A DNA stretch of 20,610 nt from an uncultured Eubacteriales bacterium (GTDB lineage Bacteria; Bacillota; Clostridia; Oscillospirales; Acutalibacteraceae): assembly GCA_934718145.1 (NCBI GenBank), contig CAKUZC010000009.1, forward strand, positions 1 through 20,610, written 5' to 3'. Below are positions 2,870-20,610 of this stretch, piece by piece. The translations under genes were made by a program, and so were the position numbers. Below the pieces are notes generated by a model. That model ran no database searches. It was not told the DNA's origin and saw only the letters and a list, made by a program, of their open reading frames with translations. Numbering within the stretch: position 1 is the stretch's first letter; every line of letters begins with the position of its first letter.

Positions 2870-2922
2870 TATTAGTATCCTTAGCGCTTTGGATAAAAAT
2901 AATTTTATAGGATGTGATTTTT

Positions 2923-3387
2923 ATGGAAATGCAAATATCGTTTGGTGGTAAAAATTTAAAATTATCTATAGCCGACTCTTTTAAAAATATATTGGAAGAA
3001 AAACGTGATCCCAATATGAAGGCTGAAGAATTTAAAAAGGAAACTCAAAAGTTGATTGAAGAATCATTTAAAGATTACTTTACAGCTAATGAGTGGAAAG
3101 AATTAAAAAAATTAAATAATGGTAAAGATGTTGATTTAGAAGAGATTGATATAGTTGAAAAGTGTGGGAATAACTGTCTAGCGAGTTGTTCAAATAAAGA
3201 AGTAAATTATTTTAAGCAGTTTCATGAAGTGTTTCTTATTGGAAATAAATTTAAAGTTTCCATAGTATTGTATCCTGAGAAAGTAAGTTTAAGAGAAATG
3301 TGGGAGGAAAATAGTGGTATAAATCCCGATTGCACATATGACGCTTTAAAACAGGCAATAAAAGAACTAAAACAAAAACAAAAATAA
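2923..3387 (+). CDS. 154-aa protein with one copy of the strand-proline-helix module
   Basis: Not a family I recognise. The first 80 residues are charged and helical, a cysteine-containing linker (CGNNC and SC, residues 81-89) follows, and residues about 99-131 read FHEVFLI, then KFKVSIVLYP, then a helix ending in MW. That is the same pattern as the first module of the 651-aa and 441-aa proteins (FKVCVFLP and FKICFMLP, each followed by a helix ending in W). There is no signal peptide or membrane segment. ATG at 2923 is chosen over an upstream GTG at 2914 because that GTG lies inside the Shine-Dalgarno AGGATGTGAT (2909-2918). This leaves the same 4-nt spacing seen in three other family genes. 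The gene is monocistronic, lying between the radA terminator and its own hairpin. Confidence 0.75.
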   Translation: MEMQISFGGKNLKLSIADSFKNILEEKRDPNMKAEEFKKETQKLIEESFKDYFTANEWKELKKLNNGKDVDLEEIDIVEKCGNNCLASCSNKEVNYFKQFHEVFLIGNKFKVSIVLYPEKVSLREMWEENSGINPDCTYDALKQAIKELKQKQK

Positions 3388-10468: not shown

Positions 10469-10544
10469 CGAGGTGTAGCTCAGCTGGTAGAGTGCTTGGT
10501 TTGGGACCAAGATGCCGCAGGTTCGAGTCCTGTCACCTCGACCA
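10469..10544 (+). tRNA. tRNA-Pro (anticodon UGG)
   Basis: A complete 76-nt cloverleaf. The acceptor stem is CGAGGTG with CACCTCG, and the D arm begins TAGCTCAGCTGG. The anticodon stem CTTGG/CCAAG closes the loop TTTGGGA, giving anticodon TGG for proline. The T arm contains GGTTCGAGTCC, the discriminator base is A, and CCA is encoded. A T6 run follows the CCA but no stem precedes it other than the tRNA itself. Confidence 0.98.
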
Positions 10545-10575
10545 TTTTTTTATTTTAGCTAAAAGGGTTTTGTTA

Positions 10576-11508
10576 ATGAAGTTTAAAAAATTGTTCTTAG
10601 TTTGTATTATTGGCTGTGTTTTAGGAGTTGGACTCTTATTTTTTTACCATAAATTTGACGAAAATTGTCCTAAGTTGTCGATTATAGTTCCCGTGTACGA
10701 TTCTGAAAAGTACCTTTCAAAGTGCATGGACAGTTTAATATCACAGACTTTTGACGATACAGAAATAATATGCATTAACGACGGCTCCAAAGACGGTTCT
10801 TTAAATATTTTAAAAGAGTACGCCGCAAGAGATTCTCGTATTAGAGTGATAGACCAACCAAATAAAGGGGTTTCGGCTACTAGAAATAACGGTATCCTTG
10901 CCGCGAGAGGGAAGTACATAACTTTTGTTGATTCTGATGATTGGTTAGATGAGTATGCATATGAATCGTGTATGGATGTGGTTCTTAAAGAGAAACCTGA
11001 AGTATTCTTTTTTGGTTTTAGGACTGATGCGTCGTCCAAAGCTTCTTCTCGTATAGATGAATCTTCCATTAAATTTCATGGACGAGGTAATATTATAAAT
11101 GCTTACAGAGAAACAAATCCCGCTGTTTGGGATAAGATATTTGATAGAAAATTTATTTTGCGAAATGATTTGTTATTTAAAGAAGATATGAGCTATGCGG
11201 AAGATCATGTGTTTAATTTGATGGCTTTTGCAAAGGCAGATAAAATTATAGGTGTTCCGAATAAATTTTACTATTATCGTGAAGATAATCAATCCTCGTT
11301 AGTACATGTAATAAATAGCACGAAAAGATTAGAGGACAAGATCAAAGCAAATAAATATTTGATATCTTATTTCAGAGATTTGGGGATACATGATTTCGAT
11401 TTGGAATTTGCAAGACAGATGGGTTTAATTTTTGATCATATAAATAATGAGGTTAAAGATGAAACCATGAAAGCTAAGTACGCAAAAGAAGTATTCAAGG
11501 CTTGTTAG
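10576..11508 (+). CDS. Family 2 glycosyltransferase with N-terminal membrane anchor
   Basis: A GT-A fold transferase that probably moves a sugar from a nucleotide-sugar to a cell-surface glycan or lipid carrier; the substrate cannot be told. In 310 residues: a hydrophobic segment (about 5-24) after MKFKK, then LSIIVPVYDSEKYL (35-48), IICINDGSKDGS (64-75), GVSATRNNG (98-106) and the metal-binding FVDSDDWL (117-124). An N-terminal membrane segment is less usual in this family and could leave the catalytic domain on either face. ATG at 10576 is used, with AAAAGGG 8 nt upstream; an open frame reaching back to 10492 would run through the tRNA. The gene begins 31 nt after the tRNA with no promoter between, so it is probably read from the tRNA promoter. 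A hairpin terminator follows. Confidence 0.88.
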   Translation: MKFKKLFLVCIIGCVLGVGLLFFYHKFDENCPKLSIIVPVYDSEKYLSKCMDSLISQTFDDTEIICINDGSKDGSLNILKEYAARDSRIRVIDQPNKGVSATRNNGILAARGKYITFVDSDDWLDEYAYESCMDVVLKEKPEVFFFGFRTDASSKASSRIDESSIKFHGRGNIINAYRETNPAVWDKIFDRKFILRNDLLFKEDMSYAEDHVFNLMAFAKADKIIGVPNKFYYYREDNQSSLVHVINSTKRLEDKIKANKYLISYFRDLGIHDFDLEFARQMGLIFDHINNEVKDETMKAKYAKEVFKAC

Positions 11509-11573: not shown

Positions 11574-12218
11574 TTATTCTTGTTCACGTTCCTCAAAGCT
11601 TTTTCTAATGCCCATTGTTCCATCTATTTGTCTAGAACTTAGGCTACAAGTTTTAATTTTTTTGGGTAATTTTATGTTTTCCCACAAAGATTCATTTTTT
11701 AATTTTGTATATACATTCTTTTTATTACCGTTGGGCTCAGCCAAATCTTGTATTACTTCATCAAGTTTAGATTCTGGTATTAGATGGCATGAAAGTCCAA
11801 GTAATTCATGATAGTTGGCATCATTTGTGTAGAATTTTTTATCAATAGATTTTAATTTTTTGTATGTGGTTATATTAGCCTTTCTTTCTGTTTTTCCGTT
11901 AAATAAGCCCAAAAATTTTTTAAATGTATACGTAACTCCTGGTGTAGTTCCTCGGATTGGAAGTTCTACTAGATCCTCTGACTTGCAATTTATTATAATT
12001 TTGTCAAGTTCATCAGGAATATTTGTCCATCCTTTAGATTGTGCAATTTTTTGAATTTCATCGGGTGTTGGTACTAGGAGATAATGTCGTTTATTATCTA
12101 GATTTAATGTATTATTTTTAGTTCCCAAATTTTGAGTATATAAACCTTTTGTTGCCCAATAATGTCCCCAATTTCTTCCTTATATTGCTTGGTTTATAAT
12201 TTGTTTTCTTGTTGCCAT
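11574..12218 (-). pseudogene. Module-family gene broken by an in-frame TAA at codon 13
   Basis: Reading from ATG at 12218, which has AGGATGTGAT at 12232-12223 and a 4-nt gap exactly as in its relatives, gives 12 codons, then TAA (12182-12180). The same frame then stays open for 201 codons to 11574. Sequence right after the stop still looks like the family: GHYWATKGL resembles GHYITVGL of the 441-aa protein, and RHYLLVPTPDEIQK with SKGW matches the strand-LP-helix-W pattern. A second copy is SCHLIPESKLDEVI (about 119 residues after GHYW). The only later start (TTG at 12128) has no ribosome site. The simplest reading is a recent nonsense mutation, for example CAA to TAA. Suppression or a sequencing error are alternatives. 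The function of the intact form is unknown. Confidence 0.65.
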
Positions 12219-12271
12219 AATAATCACATCCTGTTCTTAAAATTATTAATTGCGTTTTGAAATACAATTAT

Positions 12272-12300
12272 ATTATATATATTTATATTTATAAAATTAA
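12272..12300 (-). promoter_or_regulatory. Family promoter upstream of the broken gene
   Basis: On the minus strand TTAATT (12300-12295) is followed by a 17-nt AT spacer and a perfect TATAAT (12277-12272). The -35 is poor compared with TTGACT/TTGACA in the relatives. The leader downstream is nearly identical to that of the 870-aa gene, with TATTTC, AAATTTTAAGAA-like sequence and AGGATGTGAT. Confidence 0.55.
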
Positions 12301-12334
12301 GTATTTTTGTGAAAATAATATATTTTTTTAATTT

Positions 12335-12374
12335 CCAAAATAAAAACACCCACATTTCAAAAGAAACATGGGTG
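12335..12374 (-). terminator. Cassette terminator, copy 1
   Basis: Read on the minus strand, CACCCATGTTTC (12374-12363) pairs with GAAATGTGGGTG (12358-12347) around TTTT, followed by TTTTTATTTTGG. Two central pairs are G-U in this orientation and would be C-A mismatches on the other strand, so it terminates minus-strand transcription from the 651-aa gene. Confidence 0.85.
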
Positions 12375-12382
12375 ATAAATTT

Positions 12383-12475
12383 TTATTTAGCTAGCAGTTT
12401 TAGAATTTGCTTATCGCTTAAAACTATACAAAATTTTTTATATATGCACAATTTTTTAATATTAATAATTATATA
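12383..12475 (-). other. Possible in-frame remnant of the 651-aa gene's 3' end
   Basis: Beyond the stop of the 651-aa gene, the same frame has stops at several codons and then stays open for 30 codons, from just after TGA (12478-12476) to TAA at 12385-12383, right before the cassette terminator. The reading includes KKFCIVLSDKQILKLLAK, which resembles the FKVCVFLP-then-helix core of the module. The stretch is short and AT-rich, so chance resemblance is possible. Confidence 0.3.
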
Positions 12476-12508
12476 TCAAATTTATAAATTAAGTGAATCA
12501 ACTTCTTA

Positions 12509-14464
12509 TTAACCCATTATTTTTTTTAAATCATAACTATCTATTTCTTCAATATCTAGTGATATAGGTAATCTTTTGCTTTTCCATATATTATCCGATT
12601 TTTTCAAAATACTATAGAAGTCTTTGTTTTCATTTTTTGATAGCAATTCGTCGCGTACTGCATGAATTTTGTCTTTCGGTATAAGATAATTATATCCGCT
12701 ATAACAAGAAATATGAAGTGCATAATACTTAGTATCGTTCTTATATTCACTTTCAGGAATACATGTAAGGATGTTATATGTTTGAATTTTAAATTTTTCT
12801 CTATAATAACTCTCTTCTGACTCTTCCTTAATATATTTAGATAATGAATCGAAATATTTGTTGTAATCTTCGATTACGTATGAACAATATTCCACTTTAG
12901 CAGGCCTAGAATTTCTCTTGATGTTTTGTTCTGTAAAAAATGGTAAAAATTCATTTTTTATAACTTCCATCACATGATTTACGTATTGTTCATGTGTATC
13001 AAAACTCGATAAAGGTAATATTTTTTCGGTGATATTGTGGCGAGTTTTATTGTTCTTTCTTACTAATCCATAATAAACTTCTGAGCCACTGGGGAGTATT
13101 AGCGCTGTTTCATTATCTTGAGATATCCAAATACTACGTTTATAATCAACTATTGGATTACCGGTACTGTATAAATAATCATTGGGTAAAGAATTTGGTA
13201 TATATGCTTTTAATTTTCTAATTTTTTCCATATCAGTAACACGTTCTTGAATGTCTTTATCTTTTTCAAAATATTCTTCCAAATTTTTTATATACTCTTC
13301 AAAACTATCTATGGTTTTATAATTAGAAACTTCGCTTTGTTTTTTAATTTCGAAATCTTTACATTTTTCCATTTTTTCAATATGATGTTTTAACCATCCA
13401 ATTGCATTTCCGTATTCTTGTGCCGTATATGATATATTCCATCTAAGAAACTCTTTTTTTATATCATCAATTTCTGGAAACAAGTATGCAACCTTTTTTT
13501 CTTCATCTATATAAGAGAGTATAGGATCTTTTGTTATTTTTATATCGGAGTCATATTTTTTTATTACACTTATTTCATCAGAAGATAATTTACATTTTAC
13601 AATCTCTTTTTTTACGTAAAATTCAATTTCTTTGTCCAAATAATTCCATAAGTAGTCGTCTTTAAAATGGAATCCTCTGCTATAAATAAGTTTGCTAAAT
13701 GGTCGTTGAGAAAACGGATTTTCTCCGTATCCGTCAGAAGTTTTCTTATCAAAAATTCCTTCATATTTAGCCATCATCTCACTAGTGTATGCATGGTCAA
13801 TATCCTGGATAAAAACAGACTCTATTTTATTGTTTAATTTATTAATTAGAGATTCTTTTATAGTATCAATACTATAATTTTCTTTTTTGATAGCTTCCTT
13901 ATCTAAAATTTCTTTACTAAAAAGTTTTTTAACTCCATCAATGCTTGGAACAATTAACCCCCTCGATTGTTCTTTATCGATTATTAAACAAGGGGAATTT
14001 GATATATATTCTAAATAATTTTTATCTTTGATTTTGTATACTTCAATATATGGCAAAGCATTCCATCCTAGACTTCTTTCTACCTCTCGCATATAATTTT
14101 TGTAAAATAACCAACGCGCTTCACAATTTAGTTCATCTCCTTTAGTAACATACCCATGATATTTTAATTTCAATTTTTCTTTAGTTAGGCAATTTGAAAG
14201 AAATTTTTTATATTCATCTAGGATGATATTCGTTTTTTCAGATGCATTTTTTTTAGTTGCTCCTTCTGATATTATATTAGCCCAATCATTTTTTTTAACT
14301 ATATTTTTAACACCAGTAACTGTAGGTAGAAAAACACAAACTTTAAATGCTTCATCTAAAGCAACTACAATAAAATAATCACCTATATTAGAAACCATCT
14401 CTTCATCTGTTGACTCCATTATTATACTTTTTCCTTCTGGAATCATATCAATAAGTTTTCCCAT
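12509..14464 (-). CDS. 651-aa protein with five degenerate module copies
   Basis: Not a recognised family. No signal peptide or membrane segment. The recurring core is a hydrophobic strand, a polar turn, a second strand ending in LP/VP/FP, then a helix. I see it at about residues 28-61 (FKVCVFLP, then DW), 148-183 (KNYLEYISNSP and GLIVPSIDGVKK), 313-342 (VAYLFPEIDDIKK, then RW), 438-470 (ALILPSGSEV) and 578-610 (YNYLIPKDKIHAV). It is a clear paralogue of the 441-aa protein: both share IPEG near the start, YISNSP with I(I)VP, and ENPF followed by F(S/T)K(L/C)IY. ATG at 14464 lies 2 nt after the stop of the 500-aa coiled-coil gene, with AAAGGA as ribosome site, so the two are coupled and probably made in fixed ratio. 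A conserved terminator lies about 135 nt downstream. Confidence 0.8.
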   Translation of the reverse strand: MGKLIDMIPEGKSIIMESTDEEMVSNIGDYFIVVALDEAFKVCVFLPTVTGVKNIVKKNDWANIISEGATKKNASEKTNIILDEYKKFLSNCLTKEKLKLKYHGYVTKGDELNCEARWLFYKNYMREVERSLGWNALPYIEVYKIKDKNYLEYISNSPCLIIDKEQSRGLIVPSIDGVKKLFSKEILDKEAIKKENYSIDTIKESLINKLNNKIESVFIQDIDHAYTSEMMAKYEGIFDKKTSDGYGENPFSQRPFSKLIYSRGFHFKDDYLWNYLDKEIEFYVKKEIVKCKLSSDEISVIKKYDSDIKITKDPILSYIDEEKKVAYLFPEIDDIKKEFLRWNISYTAQEYGNAIGWLKHHIEKMEKCKDFEIKKQSEVSNYKTIDSFEEYIKNLEEYFEKDKDIQERVTDMEKIRKLKAYIPNSLPNDYLYSTGNPIVDYKRSIWISQDNETALILPSGSEVYYGLVRKNNKTRHNITEKILPLSSFDTHEQYVNHVMEVIKNEFLPFFTEQNIKRNSRPAKVEYCSYVIEDYNKYFDSLSKYIKEESEESYYREKFKIQTYNILTCIPESEYKNDTKYYALHISCYSGYNYLIPKDKIHAVRDELLSKNENKDFYSILKKSDNIWKSKRLPISLDIEEIDSYDLKKIMG

Positions 14465-14466
14465 TT

Positions 14467-15969
14467 TTATCTTCCTTTCATATTTGATTTTTCAGAGCGC
14501 CTTTTAAAGTGGTTTATCATCCTTCTAATTACATTTTTATTGTCTAAATCTTTTTCTTTAATAGTTTTCACAATGTACTCATTATTTCTATTTGAATTAA
14601 TTTTACTTTTAATTGCTAATTTTGTATTATCCGTCCATTCCATTTTTTTTATAACTTGTCTTAAAGTATAATTGAATTTTTTATCATCTACTTGTTTTTT
14701 TATTGCTTCAAATATATCCTTTTCAATTACCTTTGTATCTTTTTTGGATTTTATAATAATTATTGGATTACTAGGTTTTTCAATATTTCTCTTACTGCTC
14801 AATTTAAAAGTTTTATTTTTTATTGAAATATGGTCGTTATTGTTATTATCGTTATTAAAACTATTCTTTATAGCATCTATTACTTTTTGTCCTAATTCAT
14901 TTTGTTCTTTGTTCTTGAGTATGCGGTACGTTTCTTCAGATGAATCTCTAATTAATTTTCGTGAGAGTTTTTCTGACTTAATAAATTTTGGCAGAGTTTC
15001 ATCAAGAAGTTTTAAATTTTCATTTGTAGAAAGTTCTATCAATGACATAGTTTGCATTTTTTTCAAACTATATATATGAGATTCTATGTCATCTAGATCT
15101 TTAGAGGTAGTAAGGGAATTGCCTACTAATTTTTCTAATTTTTTTAACATTATATCAATTTTTTCTTTATATTCTTTTAATTCCGAAGCATTTGTAGTTT
15201 CTATTTGTCCTATCGATTTATTAATATAATTTGGAATGTCTTTTTCGAGATAGTCTGAATATAAAGGTGTAGATAACTGTACCAGTAAATTATATTTTAT
15301 TTGTTCAGGTGTAGCTAGTAAGTTATATTTTATTCCTTCATGTATAGGGAGCTTTGCTAGTAAATCATGTTTCACTTTTTCAGGTGCAAACAGTAATTTA
15401 CGTTTTATTTCTTCAGATATAGGGAGCTTTGCTAGTAAATTATATTTCATTGTCATTAAATTATTTTCTATTTCTTCAGGTGTAGCCAGTAAATTACGTT
15501 TCATTCCTTCCAAATTATTTATATAAGATTCTAAATTAGCACGTTCTCCTTCTCCAGTAAATTTACTTTTCTGTAGATTTTTTAACTTTTTTAAAGATGT
15601 ATCTATACTATCTAGAGTTTTACTATATATCTTATAGTCTTCTTCTCTTTTTTCCTGTTCCTCAATATATGCAGGCAGTTCTGTTTTGAGAAATTTTAAA
15701 TCATCAGGTGTATATTGATCTTCTTCTAGTAATAAATATAATTTGTCTATATGTTGGTTTATAGTTTTTAGTATCAATTCTCTATATTCATAATCGCCTA
15801 CCAGAATGGAGGATATACTGTCTTTTAGTATACGTAATTTTTCTAACATTTCATTTATACTAGCTTTTGTATTAGCCATTTCTTGTTTTTCAGTTTCTTT
15901 GTTTATAAGCTTTATAACTTCTTCATTGCTTTCGATTGCTTCTATAATTTTATTTAAATCCAAATCCAC
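14467..15969 (-). CDS. 500-aa helical-repeat/coiled-coil protein
   Basis: Unrecognised. Strongly helical, without signal peptide or membrane segment. It contains about three copies of the unit that fills the 870-aa protein, a long helix pair ending in a motif like LPAYI, IPNYI or LPKFI (about residues 98, 245 and 326). The middle unit is expanded by tandem 25-residue repeats built around YNLLA and LPI (about residues 157-235). The C-terminal 140 residues form a domain shared with the 870-aa protein: NPIIIIK, KVIE with IF, YTLRQVIKKMEW and DLDNKN, ending in a basic tail with HFKRR. The GTG at 15969 is chosen because the longer GTG start at 15978 lies inside the Shine-Dalgarno AGGATGTGGT (15983-15974). 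It is the first gene of a two-gene cassette with the 651-aa gene. Confidence 0.78.
   Translation of the reverse strand: MDLDLNKIIEAIESNEEVIKLINKETEKQEMANTKASINEMLEKLRILKDSISSILVGDYEYRELILKTINQHIDKLYLLLEEDQYTPDDLKFLKTELPAYIEEQEKREEDYKIYSKTLDSIDTSLKKLKNLQKSKFTGEGERANLESYINNLEGMKRNLLATPEEIENNLMTMKYNLLAKLPISEEIKRKLLFAPEKVKHDLLAKLPIHEGIKYNLLATPEQIKYNLLVQLSTPLYSDYLEKDIPNYINKSIGQIETTNASELKEYKEKIDIMLKKLEKLVGNSLTTSKDLDDIESHIYSLKKMQTMSLIELSTNENLKLLDETLPKFIKSEKLSRKLIRDSSEETYRILKNKEQNELGQKVIDAIKNSFNNDNNNNDHISIKNKTFKLSSKRNIEKPSNPIIIIKSKKDTKVIEKDIFEAIKKQVDDKKFNYTLRQVIKKMEWTDNTKLAIKSKINSNRNNEYIVKTIKEKDLDNKNVIRRMINHFKRRSEKSNMKGR
15298..15447 (-). repeat. Two tandem 75-nt coding repeats
   Basis: Two adjacent 25-codon units in the 500-aa protein have the pattern K-x-x-LLAKLPI-x-E-x-I then K-x-x-LL-x-(A/T)P-E-x-(V/I). 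Half-units extend on both sides (about 15266-15504), including NLLATPEEI upstream and YNLLVQLSTP downstream. Units of 75 nt can expand or contract without shifting the frame. Confidence 0.8.
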
Positions 15970-15973
15970 TATA

Positions 15974-15983
15974 ACCACATCCT
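15974..15983 (-). promoter_or_regulatory. Extended Shine-Dalgarno of the 500-aa gene
   Basis: AGGATGTGGT on the minus strand resembles the extended anti-16S sequence AGGAGGTGAT and sits exactly 4 nt before GTG at 15969. It overlaps an upstream in-frame GTG (15978), which is therefore unlikely to be the start. Confidence 0.75.
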
Positions 15984-16030
15984 AATTTTGACATTTTTAC
16001 CTATATTCAAAAACACAGTAATATTATATC

Positions 16031-16060
16031 ATAATATTATATATATATATATAAAGTCAA
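16031..16060 (-). promoter_or_regulatory. (TA)n-spacer promoter of the 500/651-aa cassette
   Basis: On the minus strand TTGACT (16060-16055), an 18-nt TA-rich spacer and TATTAT (16036-16031). The alternating tract is 15 nt (16039-16053). Just downstream AATATTAT and ATAATATT form an 8-bp inverted repeat around GAT (about 16040-16020), overlapping the -10. The -10 is not unique: TATAAT also occurs at 16041-16036. Confidence 0.6.
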
Positions 16061-16094
16061 GAGTTTTTATAAAAATAGTATAAATTTTTAACTT

Positions 16095-16134
16095 TCAAAA
16101 TAAAAGCACCCACATTTCAAAAGAAACATGGGCG
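16095..16134 (-). terminator. Cassette terminator, copy 2
   Basis: The same hairpin as at 12347-12374, spanning 16134-16107, with one change in the outer stem: minus-strand CGCCCATGTTTC pairs with GAAATGTGGGTG. It is followed by CTTTTATTTTG. It lies downstream of the 441-aa gene and its frameshifted tail. Confidence 0.8.
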
Positions 16135-16190
16135 ATGATTTTTTTGTGTTGTGATTGAAATTATTAACTATTATATGCAATAAACAACTT

Positions 16191-16312
16191 CTAATCTTTG
16201 TTGTAGATGTATTCAAAATTTGGGAGTACGACTTTTTGATTTTCACTACCTGTGAAATAAATTAAATATGAATTTTTTACACGATTTATGTTGATATGAT
16301 CATATTTAGTTA
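16191..16312 (-). pseudogene. Frameshifted 3' tail of the 441-aa gene
   Basis: One frame over from the end of the 441-aa gene, 40 codons stay open to TAG at 16193-16191: ITKYDHININRVK, then NSYLIYFTGSENQ, then KVVLPNFEYIYNKD. The last part has the strand-turn-strand-LP-helix pattern of the module. Removing one A from the A5 run at 16317-16313 joins it seamlessly to the 441-aa frame. So the tail looks like lost C-terminal coding sequence, through a one-base insertion, a slippage site or a sequencing error. Confidence 0.6.
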
Positions 16313-17631
16313 TTTTTGGATGTCACATCATTTTTTGTTATATTTTTAAATTTTTCTATGATATCGTTGTCTTTGCTGAGATTATCTTTCACGTATTTAA
16401 CATACTGTTCTTTTCCATACAACGTTACATTATAATTATTAATTTCATCTTTGTCTATAAGATCAAAGCTTTCAGGGTACTTAAAATGTTTACTCTCTTC
16501 AGATACTACTAAATTTGCATTGTAATCTAATATTTCATCTAATCGTTTATTATCGTTGGTTATTGAGTCTAATACAATAGGTTTTAATGTATCAACTCCG
16601 GGAAATAACTGCGCATACTTTCCTTCTTCGTCTTTATAACAAAGTATAAAATCTTTTATCTGTTCTCCATCAGCACTAGGATCTATTTTTTTAAGAGCAA
16701 TTTGATCATCGGGCAGAGGCATATTTTTTCTGGATTCTTTTTCTTTATCTTTAAAGTAAGATTTAAATCCATCATTTTCAATAGTTTCTTTATAAATATT
16801 AATAAATTCATTATTATTTAATTTTCCGGATTTATAAATACATTTGGTAAATTTTTTGTTACCATCAAAAGGGTTTTCTTCAACATTACCAGAAACACAA
16901 GATTCAAGTTTTTCTTGTGAAAGTTTTTCATCATAAAAATTTTCTTCTATTTCAGAACACATGTTCTGAATTTGTTTATCTATATCTTTTTCATTTTCTA
17001 TATCTAAACTCAAGAAGTGGTCGAAGATTTCTCCTTCTTCAATCATTTTTTCAAAATAATTGTCACTTACATATTCTTTAAATCCTTCAATTCCCGGTAC
17101 AACTATACCGATAAGATTTGTACTATCGCATATCAGGTAGGGAGAATTTGATATATATTTTAGATAGTTTTTATTTTTAACTCTATATATTTGATATTGA
17201 TTGGTATTTTTCGTTAAAATTTCTTTCTGTAATTGTTGTGTTATATATTTGTTAATATAATCGTCATAAGTAAGCCACGTTGTTGAATCTTTGAGCTTAG
17301 GGACATCATATTTACTGAATTCATATTCTGAATTATCGAGTAGATGTGACTCAAGGTATTTCTCGTATTTGCTTATAAATGCTGATATTTTATCATCAAT
17401 ACTTTCCTCGTTTTTGATCCATTTTTCTTTTACAGCTTTATCATATATATCAGTAAATGTTGGCAACATAAAGCATATTTTAAATTCATTATTCAAACCA
17501 ACTGTGATGTAATGGCCTCCGTTCACATATTTGTATACATCGCTACCTTTCTTTGGATGCATTATAGCGCTACCATATCCTTCTGGGATTGTATCTGTAA
17601 GCAGTTCTTGTTTTTCCTCCAATTCGCCCAT
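16306..17631 (-). CDS. 441-aa module protein, probably truncated by a frameshift
   Basis: Paralogue of the 651-aa protein, same unknown family, no signal peptide or membrane segment. Module copies lie at about residues 39-71 (HYITVGL, FKICFMLP, KEKW), 154-187 (KNYLKYISNSPYLI, GIVVPGIEGFKE) and 326-352 (YAQLFPGVDTLK). TIPEG near residue 14 and ENPF (252-255) followed by FTKCIY are shared with the paralogue. The frame ends at TAA 16308-16306, right after an A5 run. One base out of frame the sequence continues for 40 codons with another module, so the ancestral protein was likely about 480 residues. ATG at 17631 is supported by AAGGAGAGATT in the 12-nt gap after the 870-aa gene. Second gene of its cassette. 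Confidence 0.78.
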   Translation of the reverse strand: MGELEEKQELLTDTIPEGYGSAIMHPKKGSDVYKYVNGGHYITVGLNNEFKICFMLPTFTDIYDKAVKEKWIKNEESIDDKISAFISKYEKYLESHLLDNSEYEFSKYDVPKLKDSTTWLTYDDYINKYITQQLQKEILTKNTNQYQIYRVKNKNYLKYISNSPYLICDSTNLIGIVVPGIEGFKEYVSDNYFEKMIEEGEIFDHFLSLDIENEKDIDKQIQNMCSEIEENFYDEKLSQEKLESCVSGNVEENPFDGNKKFTKCIYKSGKLNNNEFINIYKETIENDGFKSYFKDKEKESRKNMPLPDDQIALKKIDPSADGEQIKDFILCYKDEEGKYAQLFPGVDTLKPIVLDSITNDNKRLDEILDYNANLVVSEESKHFKYPESFDLIDKDEINNYNVTLYGKEQYVKYVKDNLSKDNDIIEKFKNITKNDVTSKNN

Positions 17632-17643
17632 TTTAATCTCTCC

Positions 17644-20256
17644 TTATCTCATTTTTTTAGATTTTTTCTTTAATTTTTCATAATTTCTTTTGAAAAAATT
17701 AGATATTCTTTTTAACGCTTCCTTATTACTTAAATCTCTTTCATCTATATAAGTAACAAGTTCTTTCCCTTCTTTTTCCCCTTCTTTTTCCCCTTCTTTT
17801 TCCCCTTCTTTTTCCCCTTCTTTTTTTCCTTCTTTTTTTCCGCCTTTTTCTTCTTTACCTTTCGATTTTGGACATTTGTCCAATTTATCCTTAATAAGTA
17901 ATTTTTGATCCTTCCATTCCATTTTTTCAATAACTTGCTTCATAGTGTATTTTATGTTTCCTTTAATAATTTCTCCATTTATTAAACCAAATATTGCAGT
18001 TTCAATTACCTTCGGATTTTCACCTTTTTTTTTAGGTTTTATGATAGTTATAGGTGTATTTTCATTTTCTATATCTTTCTTATGACTAAGTTTAGGATTA
18101 ATGGAATTTGTCATTAAAGCAGCTATGATTTTATCTCCAAATTTTTTTTGATTTTTATCAAGTATTTTGTAAAGTTTTCCTTCAGTTTCTCGTTTGTTTC
18201 TTTTGTTTAGTCTCTCTTTTTCTTCCTCAATAAATTCTTTAGCTTCTTTGAGATAGTCCTTGTCTTCTTTGTAAAGAGTAAAGCTGGCAACTAATTTTTT
18301 GAGACCATCGATGAAAGCAAGAGCGATTGCTTGCTTGGTTTCCTTTTTTTCGGGGATATAAGTATCCTTTACCAAATCTTCTAATTCTTTTATCATTTTT
18401 CTTACACTGATTTTACATATTAAAACTGGCACAGTTTCTTTGAGATCTTTATTAACATTCTCTGTAGATAATTGTTCATATGATAAATCTTTCCATTTTT
18501 CTAACTTTTTTTTGTAATTATCAAAGTTTTCACGATCTTCTTCTTGAACACAATCATTTAGCTCATTTAATTTAGTTAACAGTTCATTTATAGTCTTTTT
18601 TGATCTTTCATCATCGTTTCTCAGTTGTTCGTTACATCTTTCAATAAAATTTGGTATAGTTTTTTCGATAAGTTCATTATTATACAATTTTTCGTATGGC
18701 CAGTTGATCATTTTCGATAAATTGCTTATATAAATTTCGCAGTCTTTGTTATAGTTTTCTATAACAGATTTATTTTTATACAGTTGACGCAATTCATTTA
18801 TCAGTTTATTTATAGTTTCTTTTAATTTTTCATAATTTTCTTCCTGTTTTTTATAATTTCCTTCTGGGTTTTTACATCCTTTAATAAAATTTGGTACAGT
18901 TTTTTCGAGATAGTTTTTAATTATATCTGTAGATAATTCTTCGTATGGACGGTTTTTCATTCTTTGTAACTCATGTATATATTTTGCGAAGATCATCCTA
19001 TCTCGTGCTATAACAAATTTACTGTTGCGCATTTGGTCCAATTCACTTATCAGTTTATCTATAGTATCTCTGATTTCTTTTAATTTCGCATCTTTATCCT
19101 GAACCTGAGACTGAACCTGAGGTTGAGATTGAACCTGAGGTTGAGATTGAACCTGAGGTTGAGATTGAACGTGAAGTTTCGGACCTTGTTCCATCATTTT
19201 TATTCCATCTTCACATAATTTAATATAATTTGGTACAGTTTCTTCGATATATTTTTTAAATGAAGGCGTATTTAGTTCTGAAAGTGGCTTATCTAGTTTT
19301 TCTTTTAAATTAGATTCGTGAGTTTTAATATCTCGCTTCAGTACGTTTGAAACAAGCATATTGTTACTTAGTTCATTTAATTTTGTTAACAGATTTTCTA
19401 TAGTATCTTTGATGTTTTTTTCTAATTCTGCGTCTTGATTCTGAGGTTGATCGTTTTCTTGTACTTGTTTTTCATATTGTTCAATAAAATTTGGTAGAGT
19501 TTGTTCGAGAAATTCATTAATTTCATCGCTAGATAATTCTATATATGACCAATTTAATGCATCGTTTAACCATTTTTCATAATCCATAAGTTCTGTTTTC
19601 ATTTTTTCTGTAACAAACTTACTGTTAATCAACAATTCCACTTTCTCTAACAGTTTACGTATTGTATCTTTGATTTTTTTTAATTCTTTATCTTGCATTA
19701 TTTGAGCTCTAATTTGAGTTTGTTCCAGTTGTTTTATAAAATTTTCACATGATTCAATAGATTTCGGCACAGTCTCTTCGATATATTTTTTAAATGAAGA
19801 CGTATATAGTTCTGAAAGTGGCTTATTTAGTTGTTCATTTAAATAGGATTTTTGCTTTTCAATTTGTTGCTTCATTAGTTTCGGAGTACGTTGATTGTTA
19901 CTCAGTTCGTTTAATTTTGTTAACAGTTCATTTATATAATTTTTGATATCTTGTAATAGTGGAGCTTGTTTGGATTCTTCTTTTTTTATATTCTCTTTAT
20001 ATTCTTTAATGAGATTCGGCAAAGTTTCTTTTAAATATTTTAAAGTTTCATTGTTATATAGTTTGTTAACTGGCGTTTTTGCTCCAGTTTGCGTCAACCA
20101 ATTTATGTTACTTGCTATTTCTTCCTTTATGTTATCTGAAAGAAACATGCTGTCATATAATTTTAAAAGTTCCTTTAGCATAACAGAAATTCTTACGTTT
20201 TTTACAAGTTCTTGGTCTTTGTTGATTTTTTTATAAAGATTTTCTGCCAAATTCAC
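17644..20256 (-). CDS. 870-aa helical-repeat/coiled-coil protein
   Basis: Unrecognised. Highly charged and helical, without signal peptide or membrane segment. About seven units of 75-113 residues end in a T(V/L/I)PNFI-like motif, at about residues 78, 162, 253, 340, 453, 533 and 608. Each is preceded by (L/P)xxELST-type sequence and begins with a helix like INELLTKLNELSNN. Two low-complexity inserts interrupt it: VQSQPQ repeats (about 363-385) and KEGE repeats (about 807-832). The C-terminal domain matches the 500-aa protein: TPITIIK, KVIETAIFG, YTMKQVIEKMEW and DLSNKE, with a basic tail ending FKRNYEKLKKKSKKMR. GTG at 20256 is chosen, as GTG at 20265 lies within the Shine-Dalgarno. Repeat units with helix pairs suggest an elongated scaffold or binding protein; that is inference. 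Upstream partner of the 441-aa gene. Confidence 0.78.
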   Translation of the reverse strand: MNLAENLYKKINKDQELVKNVRISVMLKELLKLYDSMFLSDNIKEEIASNINWLTQTGAKTPVNKLYNNETLKYLKETLPNLIKEYKENIKKEESKQAPLLQDIKNYINELLTKLNELSNNQRTPKLMKQQIEKQKSYLNEQLNKPLSELYTSSFKKYIEETVPKSIESCENFIKQLEQTQIRAQIMQDKELKKIKDTIRKLLEKVELLINSKFVTEKMKTELMDYEKWLNDALNWSYIELSSDEINEFLEQTLPNFIEQYEKQVQENDQPQNQDAELEKNIKDTIENLLTKLNELSNNMLVSNVLKRDIKTHESNLKEKLDKPLSELNTPSFKKYIEETVPNYIKLCEDGIKMMEQGPKLHVQSQPQVQSQPQVQSQPQVQSQVQDKDAKLKEIRDTIDKLISELDQMRNSKFVIARDRMIFAKYIHELQRMKNRPYEELSTDIIKNYLEKTVPNFIKGCKNPEGNYKKQEENYEKLKETINKLINELRQLYKNKSVIENYNKDCEIYISNLSKMINWPYEKLYNNELIEKTIPNFIERCNEQLRNDDERSKKTINELLTKLNELNDCVQEEDRENFDNYKKKLEKWKDLSYEQLSTENVNKDLKETVPVLICKISVRKMIKELEDLVKDTYIPEKKETKQAIALAFIDGLKKLVASFTLYKEDKDYLKEAKEFIEEEKERLNKRNKRETEGKLYKILDKNQKKFGDKIIAALMTNSINPKLSHKKDIENENTPITIIKPKKKGENPKVIETAIFGLINGEIIKGNIKYTMKQVIEKMEWKDQKLLIKDKLDKCPKSKGKEEKGGKKEGKKEGEKEGEKEGEKEGEKEGKELVTYIDERDLSNKEALKRISNFFKRNYEKLKKKSKKMR
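17769..17840 (-). repeat. 12-nt tandem repeat encoding KEGE
   Basis: Four perfect 12-nt copies (17769-17816; plus-strand unit CTTCTTTTTCCC), followed by degenerate copies to about 17840. They encode a Lys-Glu-Gly-Glu stretch between the conserved domain and the basic tail of the 870-aa protein. The 500-aa paralogue lacks it. Copy-number change keeps the frame. Confidence 0.9.
19113..19166 (-). repeat. 18-nt tandem repeat encoding VQSQPQ
   Basis: Three perfect 18-nt copies (plus-strand unit GAACCTGAGGTTGAGATT) with partial copies at each end. They encode a Gln/Pro-rich linker between the fourth and fifth helical units of the 870-aa protein and account for the longer spacing there. Confidence 0.92.
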
Positions 20257-20260
20257 TATA

Positions 20261-20270
20261 ATCACATCCT
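20261..20270 (-). promoter_or_regulatory. Extended Shine-Dalgarno of the 870-aa gene
   Basis: AGGATGTGAT on the minus strand, 4 nt before GTG at 20256. Two family genes with ATG starts (2923 and 12218) have the identical sequence and the identical 4-nt gap, which decides this start over the GTG at 20265 that lies inside the site. Confidence 0.8.
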
Positions 20271-20312
20271 ATTCTTAAAATTTTTAATTTCATTTCGAAA
20301 TATAGTAATATT

Positions 20313-20341
20313 ATATTATGATATTATATATATAAATTCAA
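20313..20341 (-). promoter_or_regulatory. Family promoter of the 870/441-aa cassette
   Basis: On the minus strand TTGAAT (20341-20336), a 17-nt spacer containing a short TA run (9 nt) and TAATAT (20318-20313); a TATAAT lies slightly further at 20315-20310. Upstream is the shared TATTATTTTTTTATAAAA element. The exact -10 is uncertain because of the AT richness. Confidence 0.5.
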
Positions 20342-20370
20342 GTATTTTATAAAAAAATAATATAATTTCC

Positions 20371-20408
20371 AAAATAAAAACACCCACATCTCAAAAGAAA
20401 CGTGAGTG
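20371..20408 (-). terminator. Cassette terminator, copy 3
   Basis: Minus-strand CACTCACGTTTC (20408-20397) pairs with GAGATGTGGGTG (20392-20381) around TTTT, followed by TTTTTATTTTGG. Compared with copy 1 the stem differs at three positions, yet every pair is still Watson-Crick or G-U in minus-strand RNA. It lies 8 nt after the stop of the partial gene at the right edge. Confidence 0.85.
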
Positions 20409-20416
20409 ATAAATTT

Positions 20417-20610
20417 TTATTCTACCGTATTGTCTAAATCATCAATATATCCATCAAATTGGCCTAGAGTTTTCAAATAAGAATAAGCTGTGTTTACATT
20501 CAAAGACGAGTTATAGTCTATATTGAAGTATTCGGTATTTATAAAAATATTCATCGATTCATGATTTTCTAAAGCTGATTTTTCTTCAAGTCTTTTTGAT
20601 TTCGTGGTAT
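20417..20610 (-). CDS. C-terminal end of an unidentified gene (cut by window edge)
   Basis: Sixty-three complete codons end at TAA (20419-20417); the gene continues to the right of the window. The visible part is acidic and contains KSKRLEEKSALENHE, then NIFINTEYFNIDYNS, ending LGQFDGYIDDLDNTVE. I see no module core in it. The position right before a cassette terminator, and the conserved AATAAAAATTTATCAC at the stop (also present before terminator copy 1), place it as the last gene of a further cassette. Confidence 0.6.
   Translation of the reverse strand, partial: TTKSKRLEEKSALENHESMNIFINTEYFNIDYNSSLNVNTAYSYLKTLGQFDGYIDDLDNTVE

Follow-up and report, generated by a model that had tools for sequence, protein, structure and literature searches.

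MIB and MIP of Mycoplasma are surface proteins. Most Mycoplasma species have multiple copies of this two-protein system, and its sequence diversity was suggested in a review to be a component of antigenic variation (PMC8593674). In Haemophilus, a TA tract at the phase-variable pilin promoter of hifA/hifB was proposed to alter expression through the spacing between the -10 and -35 promoter elements (PMC2651432). The DNA analyzed in this work, a 20,610-nt stretch of contig CAKUZC010000009.1 from an uncultured clostridium (hereafter the window), carries an array of two-gene units, A1-B1 and A2-B2, in a gut bacterium. The array resembles MIB-MIP as a two-protein system with multiple diverged paralogous copies in a host-associated bacterium, and the hifA/hifB case in that three paralogous promoter-like regions vary in length via TA-rich tracts. 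It differs from the former in that A1, B1, A2 and B2 match nothing in Pfam or NCBIfam above cut-off and show no export signal by hydropathy, the two systems being likened by description only, and from the latter in that length differs here only between paralogous copies and the choice of hexamers is uncertain. Tentatively, and with somewhat less than even confidence, we interpret the array as a lineage-restricted, diversifying multigene family of tandem, autonomous two-gene cassettes, the products of which probably assemble with each other.

Paralogous gene pairs

On the minus strand the array consists, in order, of the end of an unrelated-looking gene, a control block, A1-B1, a block, A2-B2, a block and a broken gene, C. 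In both operons the gene of a helical repeat protein comes first: A1 (17644–20256, 870 residues) is followed after 12 nt by B1 (16306–17631, 441 residues), and A2 (14467–15969, 500 residues) after 2 nt by B2 (12509–14464, 651 residues, modules 1–5). The open reading frame (ORF) listed for A1 spans 17644–20265, and its start was set at the GTG at 20256 by comparing the three leaders; that listed for A2 spans 14467–15978, and its start was set at 15969, as in the database copy P0003. All four reading frames are intact throughout. These ORFs and gaps agree with the two operons of like gene order described in an earlier note on this DNA. In a search against a six-sequence database, made without low-complexity or composition correction, A1 matched A2 (24% identity over 547, E 1.2e-30) and B1 matched B2 (27% over 450 columns, E 4.2e-37); overall, protein identity between paralogues lies at 24–33%. 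Since A1 and A2 on the one hand, and B1 and B2 on the other, are paralogues, A and B were duplicated together, as the earlier note had proposed; the control block shared by the copies points the same way. We are highly confident that the array is built of paralogous pair cassettes, each with its own control block.

The C-terminal part of the A proteins, with the motif QVIxKMEWxD (QVIEKMEW in A1), is their best-kept part (45% identity between A1 and A2), and a T(V/L/I)PNFI-type motif occurs seven times in A1, at a spacing of 75–113 residues, and three times in A2, at spacings of 147 and 81; both motifs had been named in the earlier note. An alignment of the ten repeat units, cut at 87 residues, has three invariant columns. 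A2 additionally bears short leucine-rich repeats. In A1, a 12-nt tandem repeat (17761–17853) encodes a KEGE-type charged linker that is missing in A2 and is likely a length-variable spot. The structural model of A2 is helical over residues 5–332, where the predicted local distance difference test (pLDDT) score is 73–95 in all but two of the first 33 ten-residue blocks (31 of 33), these two having 65 and 67; long helices are gathered in bundles and joined by shorter ones, and from residue 333 pLDDT is mostly below 50. This predicted architecture recalls spectrin-like three-helix repeat proteins, and a weak profile match to spectrin, Protein Data Bank (PDB) entry 3edv, was obtained (E 0.31). No Pfam spectrin family was found among the matches of A1 and A2 at E 1, and no specific structural relative was found.

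B1 and B2 share the motifs IPEG, YISNSP and ENPF, as the earlier note had stated. B1 is colinear with modules 1–3 of B2, so that B2 equals B1 plus two further C-terminal modules. The view of the B proteins as built of repeated modules depends on the colinear B1/B2 matches (z 14.3, 14.1 and 7.7); for different modules, within or across the two proteins, the best z was 3.3; a score of 12.7 for Cm1/Cm2 was an artefact of overlapping segments. In a 19-residue hydropathy profile, B2 peaks at 1.8 from residue 31, above the usual threshold of 1.6, in a stretch that nevertheless contains charged residues and low-confidence predicted strands. The model of B2 is weak (pLDDT 36) and not usable; a strand-strand-helix succession appears in it at four places, without confidence.

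Both flanks of the pairs had been described earlier as a broken and a partial gene. The former, C (11574–12218, minus strand), has an in-frame TAA at codon 13 and is open over 11574–12128. It includes only module-1-like and module-5-like parts: its end resembles B2 residues 557–651 (E 2.7e-9), and its start weakly resembles B2 module 1 (z 4.3, 45 pairs tested). Hence C, though broken, is a B-type gene that lies behind such a block with no A gene in between. The partial gene, of which the 3' end lies at 20417–20608 of the minus strand (stop at 20419–20417) and which is cut by the window edge, showed no similarity to the A or B proteins (z < 1 in all six comparisons); only the control block behind it is common to the array.

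Net charges are opposite in both pairs (A1 +15 and B1 -25; A2 +9 and B2 -7). Judging from gene order, spacing and these charges in the two pairs known, A would be predicted, with fair probability, to assemble with B, in line with the interaction and coupling proposed in the earlier note. Translational coupling of A2 and B2 is plausible given the 2-nt gap; it would be less needed for A1 and B1, because a GGAGAG Shine-Dalgarno (SD) sequence sits in their 12-nt gap.

Control blocks and the spacing of promoter-like elements

A1, A2 and C are each preceded by a block of 162–175 nt with a terminator, a promoter-like sequence and an SD sequence, extending from 10–16 nt ahead of a 12-pair terminator-like hairpin to the start codon. 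This repeated block had been left out of the earlier note and is new relative to it. All three copies lie on the minus strand. The first, S0 (20257–20418), comprises a hairpin at 20408–20381, a -35-like TTGAAT, a TA tract, TATAAT and the SD AGGATGTG; S1 (15970–16144) comprises a hairpin at 16134–16107, TTGACT, (TA)8 at 16038–16053, TATAAT and the SD; S2 (12219–12390) comprises a hairpin at 12374–12347, TTAATT, TATAAT and the SD. Terminator-like hairpins are thus present in all three blocks, and number eight in the whole region versus 2.2 expected. In every block TATAAT stands 39 nt ahead of the SD AGGATGTG. When the hexamers are paired by homology of the shared TATAAT, the -35-like hexamer in the corresponding position stands 20 nt away from it in S0, 26 nt in S1 and 17 nt in S2, the difference arising via TA-rich tracts.

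Pairwise identities of the blocks, counted with 7–9 nt of the gene, are 81, 88 and 77% versus 63–64% for base-shuffled controls. In 30-column steps the identity is 68–97% inside the block and 29–63% outside it, with a drop at the start codons. For coding DNA the same aligner gave 67% over the first 1240 nt of the B genes (shuffled 63%) and 62% over the last 480 nt of the A genes (without a shuffled control). The non-coding block is therefore better kept than the genes, contrary to the usual case; either the block is strongly constrained or it has recombined repeatedly, while the genes diversify. A conserved 5' control region ahead of divergent coding regions, a feature of phase-variable surface-antigen families, is present.

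Database copies and searches for relatives

Variation of the array proteins, which is not visible from the window itself, was found in database copies. P0002, 97% identical to B2, differs from it at 19 positions, of which 16 fall within 126 residues covering module 1 and the following linker; in 20,000 random placements such a span never took in more than 12, its length having been chosen after the data were seen. P0004 is a variant of A2 lacking one 11-residue unit and having a divergent tail.

The statement of the earlier note that no known family matches was upheld: in the profile libraries searched (Pfam, NCBIfam, PHROG and PADLOC) no array protein gave a match above a curated cut-off. The sub-threshold matches were read as chance, namely Pfam Thr_synth_N for A1 (E 0.0038), NCBIfam FliH for the charged linker of A1 (E 0.0087 and 0.009), NCBIfam PrsA for C (E 0.047), and PHROG 35354 for B2 (E 0.0085, the best in that library) and 35066 for C (E 0.027). 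Among PDB profiles the best match of A was to eL19 (E 0.044) and that of B had E 0.67; both were treated likewise. The protein database was searched by a method that needs shared 5-residue words. One of 6482 candidates matched, being the window's own B1; with a query including B1, one of 7994 scored sequences matched (P0002); and two of 7992 matched in a further search (P0003 and P0004). The search that found P0002 did not return B1, although B1 was part of its query and is present in that database, and the search that found P0003 and P0004 did not report A1, which may or may not be in the database; little weight can therefore be given to the lack of distant relatives. Four scans of viral-contig proteins returned 3, 600, 600 and 483 stretches fitting the pattern, none of which was confirmed, and the block pattern had no match in viral contigs. 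Plasmids and phages were queried with A2 and B2 only: neither had a match in plasmids and A2 had none in phages; B2 matched two Streptococcus phage records at E 1 and none better, which was read as chance.

Whole-genome searches gave no relative in 7 genomes, 200 of the family, 11 of the genus, 97 of relatives and 299 of the phylum; these samples overlap, individual searches covered 7–394 genomes, and they were broad, not exhaustive, and of limited sensitivity. AddB, used as a positive control, was recovered from 10 of the 11 genus genomes, showing that the genomes are searchable but not thereby that fast-evolving proteins are detectable in them. Several isolated matches were dismissed as chance. 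The A C-terminus matched in 1 of 391 genomes, on the part of the alignment with the A1 charged linker and beyond, and B module 2 in 2 of 391, local tblastn giving nothing better than E 0.11 in either case; the A repeats matched in 1 of 59, at an ORF that resembles MnmE by eye, and B in 1 of 394 (E 1.4e-4), at an ORF that resembles an AraC-type regulator by eye. Block DNA, an AT-rich query, matched short pieces in 20 of 59 genomes, at best with E 8e-7 over query bases 71–139, and the terminator pattern matched in 2 of 59 at three mismatches versus none in the reversed control; both results were regarded as noise. Beyond the near-identical copies, no convincing relative was found in the databases and genomes searched.

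Interpretation and genomic setting

According to the reading of the array as a diversifying cassette family, a cassette would start with the control block, which comprises the terminator of the preceding unit, a promoter and a ribosome-binding site, and continue with A followed by B. A would be a long rod of bundled helices whose C-terminal region is conserved, and B a modular protein in which, going by the weak model, beta-hairpin-plus-helix elements may recur. The conserved C-terminal region of A and the conserved second module of B, with YISNSP, are candidate contacts between the two, while the A repeats and the first B module would diversify. The cassettes were presumably multiplied by duplication, probably via recombination at the near-identical blocks. 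Promoter strength may differ as the TA tracts set the -35/-10 spacing, and the bacterium could therefore express different versions, conceivably for contact with a changing partner such as a host, a phage or a rival. That switching or diversification is the purpose of the arrangement is possible but doubtful. The most specific version, a variable two-component assembly of gut Clostridia in which a helical rod and a modular partner are reshuffled at the blocks, switched by TA-tract spacing and varied in B module 1 and in A repeat number, is unlikely as a whole. Two large protein families for which no relative was found, kept paired and multiplied in tandem, point to a function that is specific to the lineage and pressed towards variation; if both promoter switching and module exchange are true, uncultured gut Clostridia would possess a system akin to antigenic variation. 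The control block offers a searchable tag for further cassettes.

Several observations weigh against this reading. The promoter assignment is not secure, as other hexamer choices exist: a consensus scan prefers hexamers at the usual distance from each other (TTGACT-18-TATTAT for S1, TTTATA-17-TATAAT for S2), and none of the sites listed (60 of 67) uses TTGAAT in S0. Promoter-like matches, taken together, do not exceed chance (67 versus 58.8 expected, standard deviation 8.0), and (TA)9 tracts occur also outside the array, at window positions 6 and 2850. By 19-residue hydropathy alone, none of the A and B proteins has an N-terminal signal-like stretch, and a surface role would therefore need another export route. 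P0002 and P0004 are database proteins encoded on contigs no longer than 5,047 bases, so short that assembly error is possible for both; P0004, given its divergent tail, may be such an error or a broken gene. Finally, comparisons between the unrelated A and B proteins in the six-sequence search reached E 2e-5 (A1/B1) and 2.5e-4 (A1/B2), so that composition inflates the alignment scores; the A1/A2 and B1/B2 matches lie far beyond this effect.

The same proteins could instead form an ordinary internal two-subunit scaffold or storage structure, with genes that were duplicated to raise dosage and then drifted apart, neither variety nor switching being selected for. The lack of an N-terminal export signal, the helical rod and the fixed gene order agree with this, but drift fits poorly with proteins so divergent behind blocks which keep 77–88% DNA identity, with the clustering of the B2 variant differences and with the empty genome samples of family, genus, relatives and phylum; we regard such a structure as unlikely.

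The place of the array beyond tRNA-Pro, at a site that differs in L002 and L003, and its GC content agree with the reading as a cassette family; the surroundings also bear on further explanations. Among the best 80 of 281 RadA relatives, for which synteny was seen at 7 of 80 loci, the RadA of the window is 76–79% identical to those of gut Clostridia assemblies (L001–L004 and L042), of which L001, L002 and L004 are goat-labelled (duodenum, jejunum and cecum). The RadA-AddA-AddB order is the same in L002, L003 and L042, and in L001 up to the contig end. Beside radA-addA-addB lies tRNA-Pro(TGG) (10469–10544, plus strand), beyond which the sequence differs among the relatives examined. In the window a glycosyltransferase gene follows the tRNA, and then the array. 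In L003 and L042 the tRNA adjoins AddB, and in L003 a serine recombinase gene follows it; in L002 it lies about 3 kb away on the opposite strand, with a Stealth/ricin-lectin gene and a glycosyltransferase gene ahead of it. The genus of L003 is represented by 11 genomes of 0.8–1.3 Mb, sizes that may be underestimates as completeness is not stated. The guanine-plus-cytosine (GC) content is 25–28% in intervals across 12001–19500 versus 28–36% before.

An extracellular action of A and B, directed at a host or protist and reached via an unrecognized export route, would suit a host-associated bacterium of small genome, as the gut and goat origin of the closest RadA relatives, the genome sizes in the genus of L003, the tandem, orphan and variable cassettes and the signal-like N-terminus (by eye) of the Stealth/ricin-lectin protein nearby in L002 would all allow; hydropathy, however, revealed no signal peptide, export systems and secretion motifs not having been searched for, and we consider this explanation rather improbable. 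The variable site beside tRNA-Pro, differing in L002 and L003 and accompanied in the latter by the recombinase gene, together with the strong divergence of the copies, recalls a duplicated two-gene system of anti-phage or inter-bacterial conflict, but none of the five proteins matched PADLOC at E 1 and no nuclease, ATPase or toxin domain appeared above the Pfam cut-off, which makes this quite improbable. Least likely is a phage or mobile-element remnant or cargo kept as decaying copies: the broken C and the lower GC content are in its favor, but A1, B1, A2 and B2 are open throughout, PHROG gave nothing better than the match of B2 (E 0.0085), no relative was confirmed in viral contigs, and phage records yielded nothing for A2 and nothing better than E 1 for B2.

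Other features were noted around the array. Two short genes beside radA (1012–1407 and 2914–3387) have no Pfam match at E 0.01. The glycosyltransferase gene of the window (10492–11508) encodes a GT2 enzyme with an N-terminal hydrophobic segment by eye; its true start is probably further in, because the listed ORF start overlaps tRNA-Pro. In L002 the protein encoded between AddB and tRNA-Pro (18373–19860) has, behind its signal-like N-terminus, a Stealth CR2 domain and, at the C-terminus, a ricin-type lectin; its gene adjoins a GT2 glycosyltransferase gene, the product of which matches the GT2 of the window with 40.8% identity over 250 columns.

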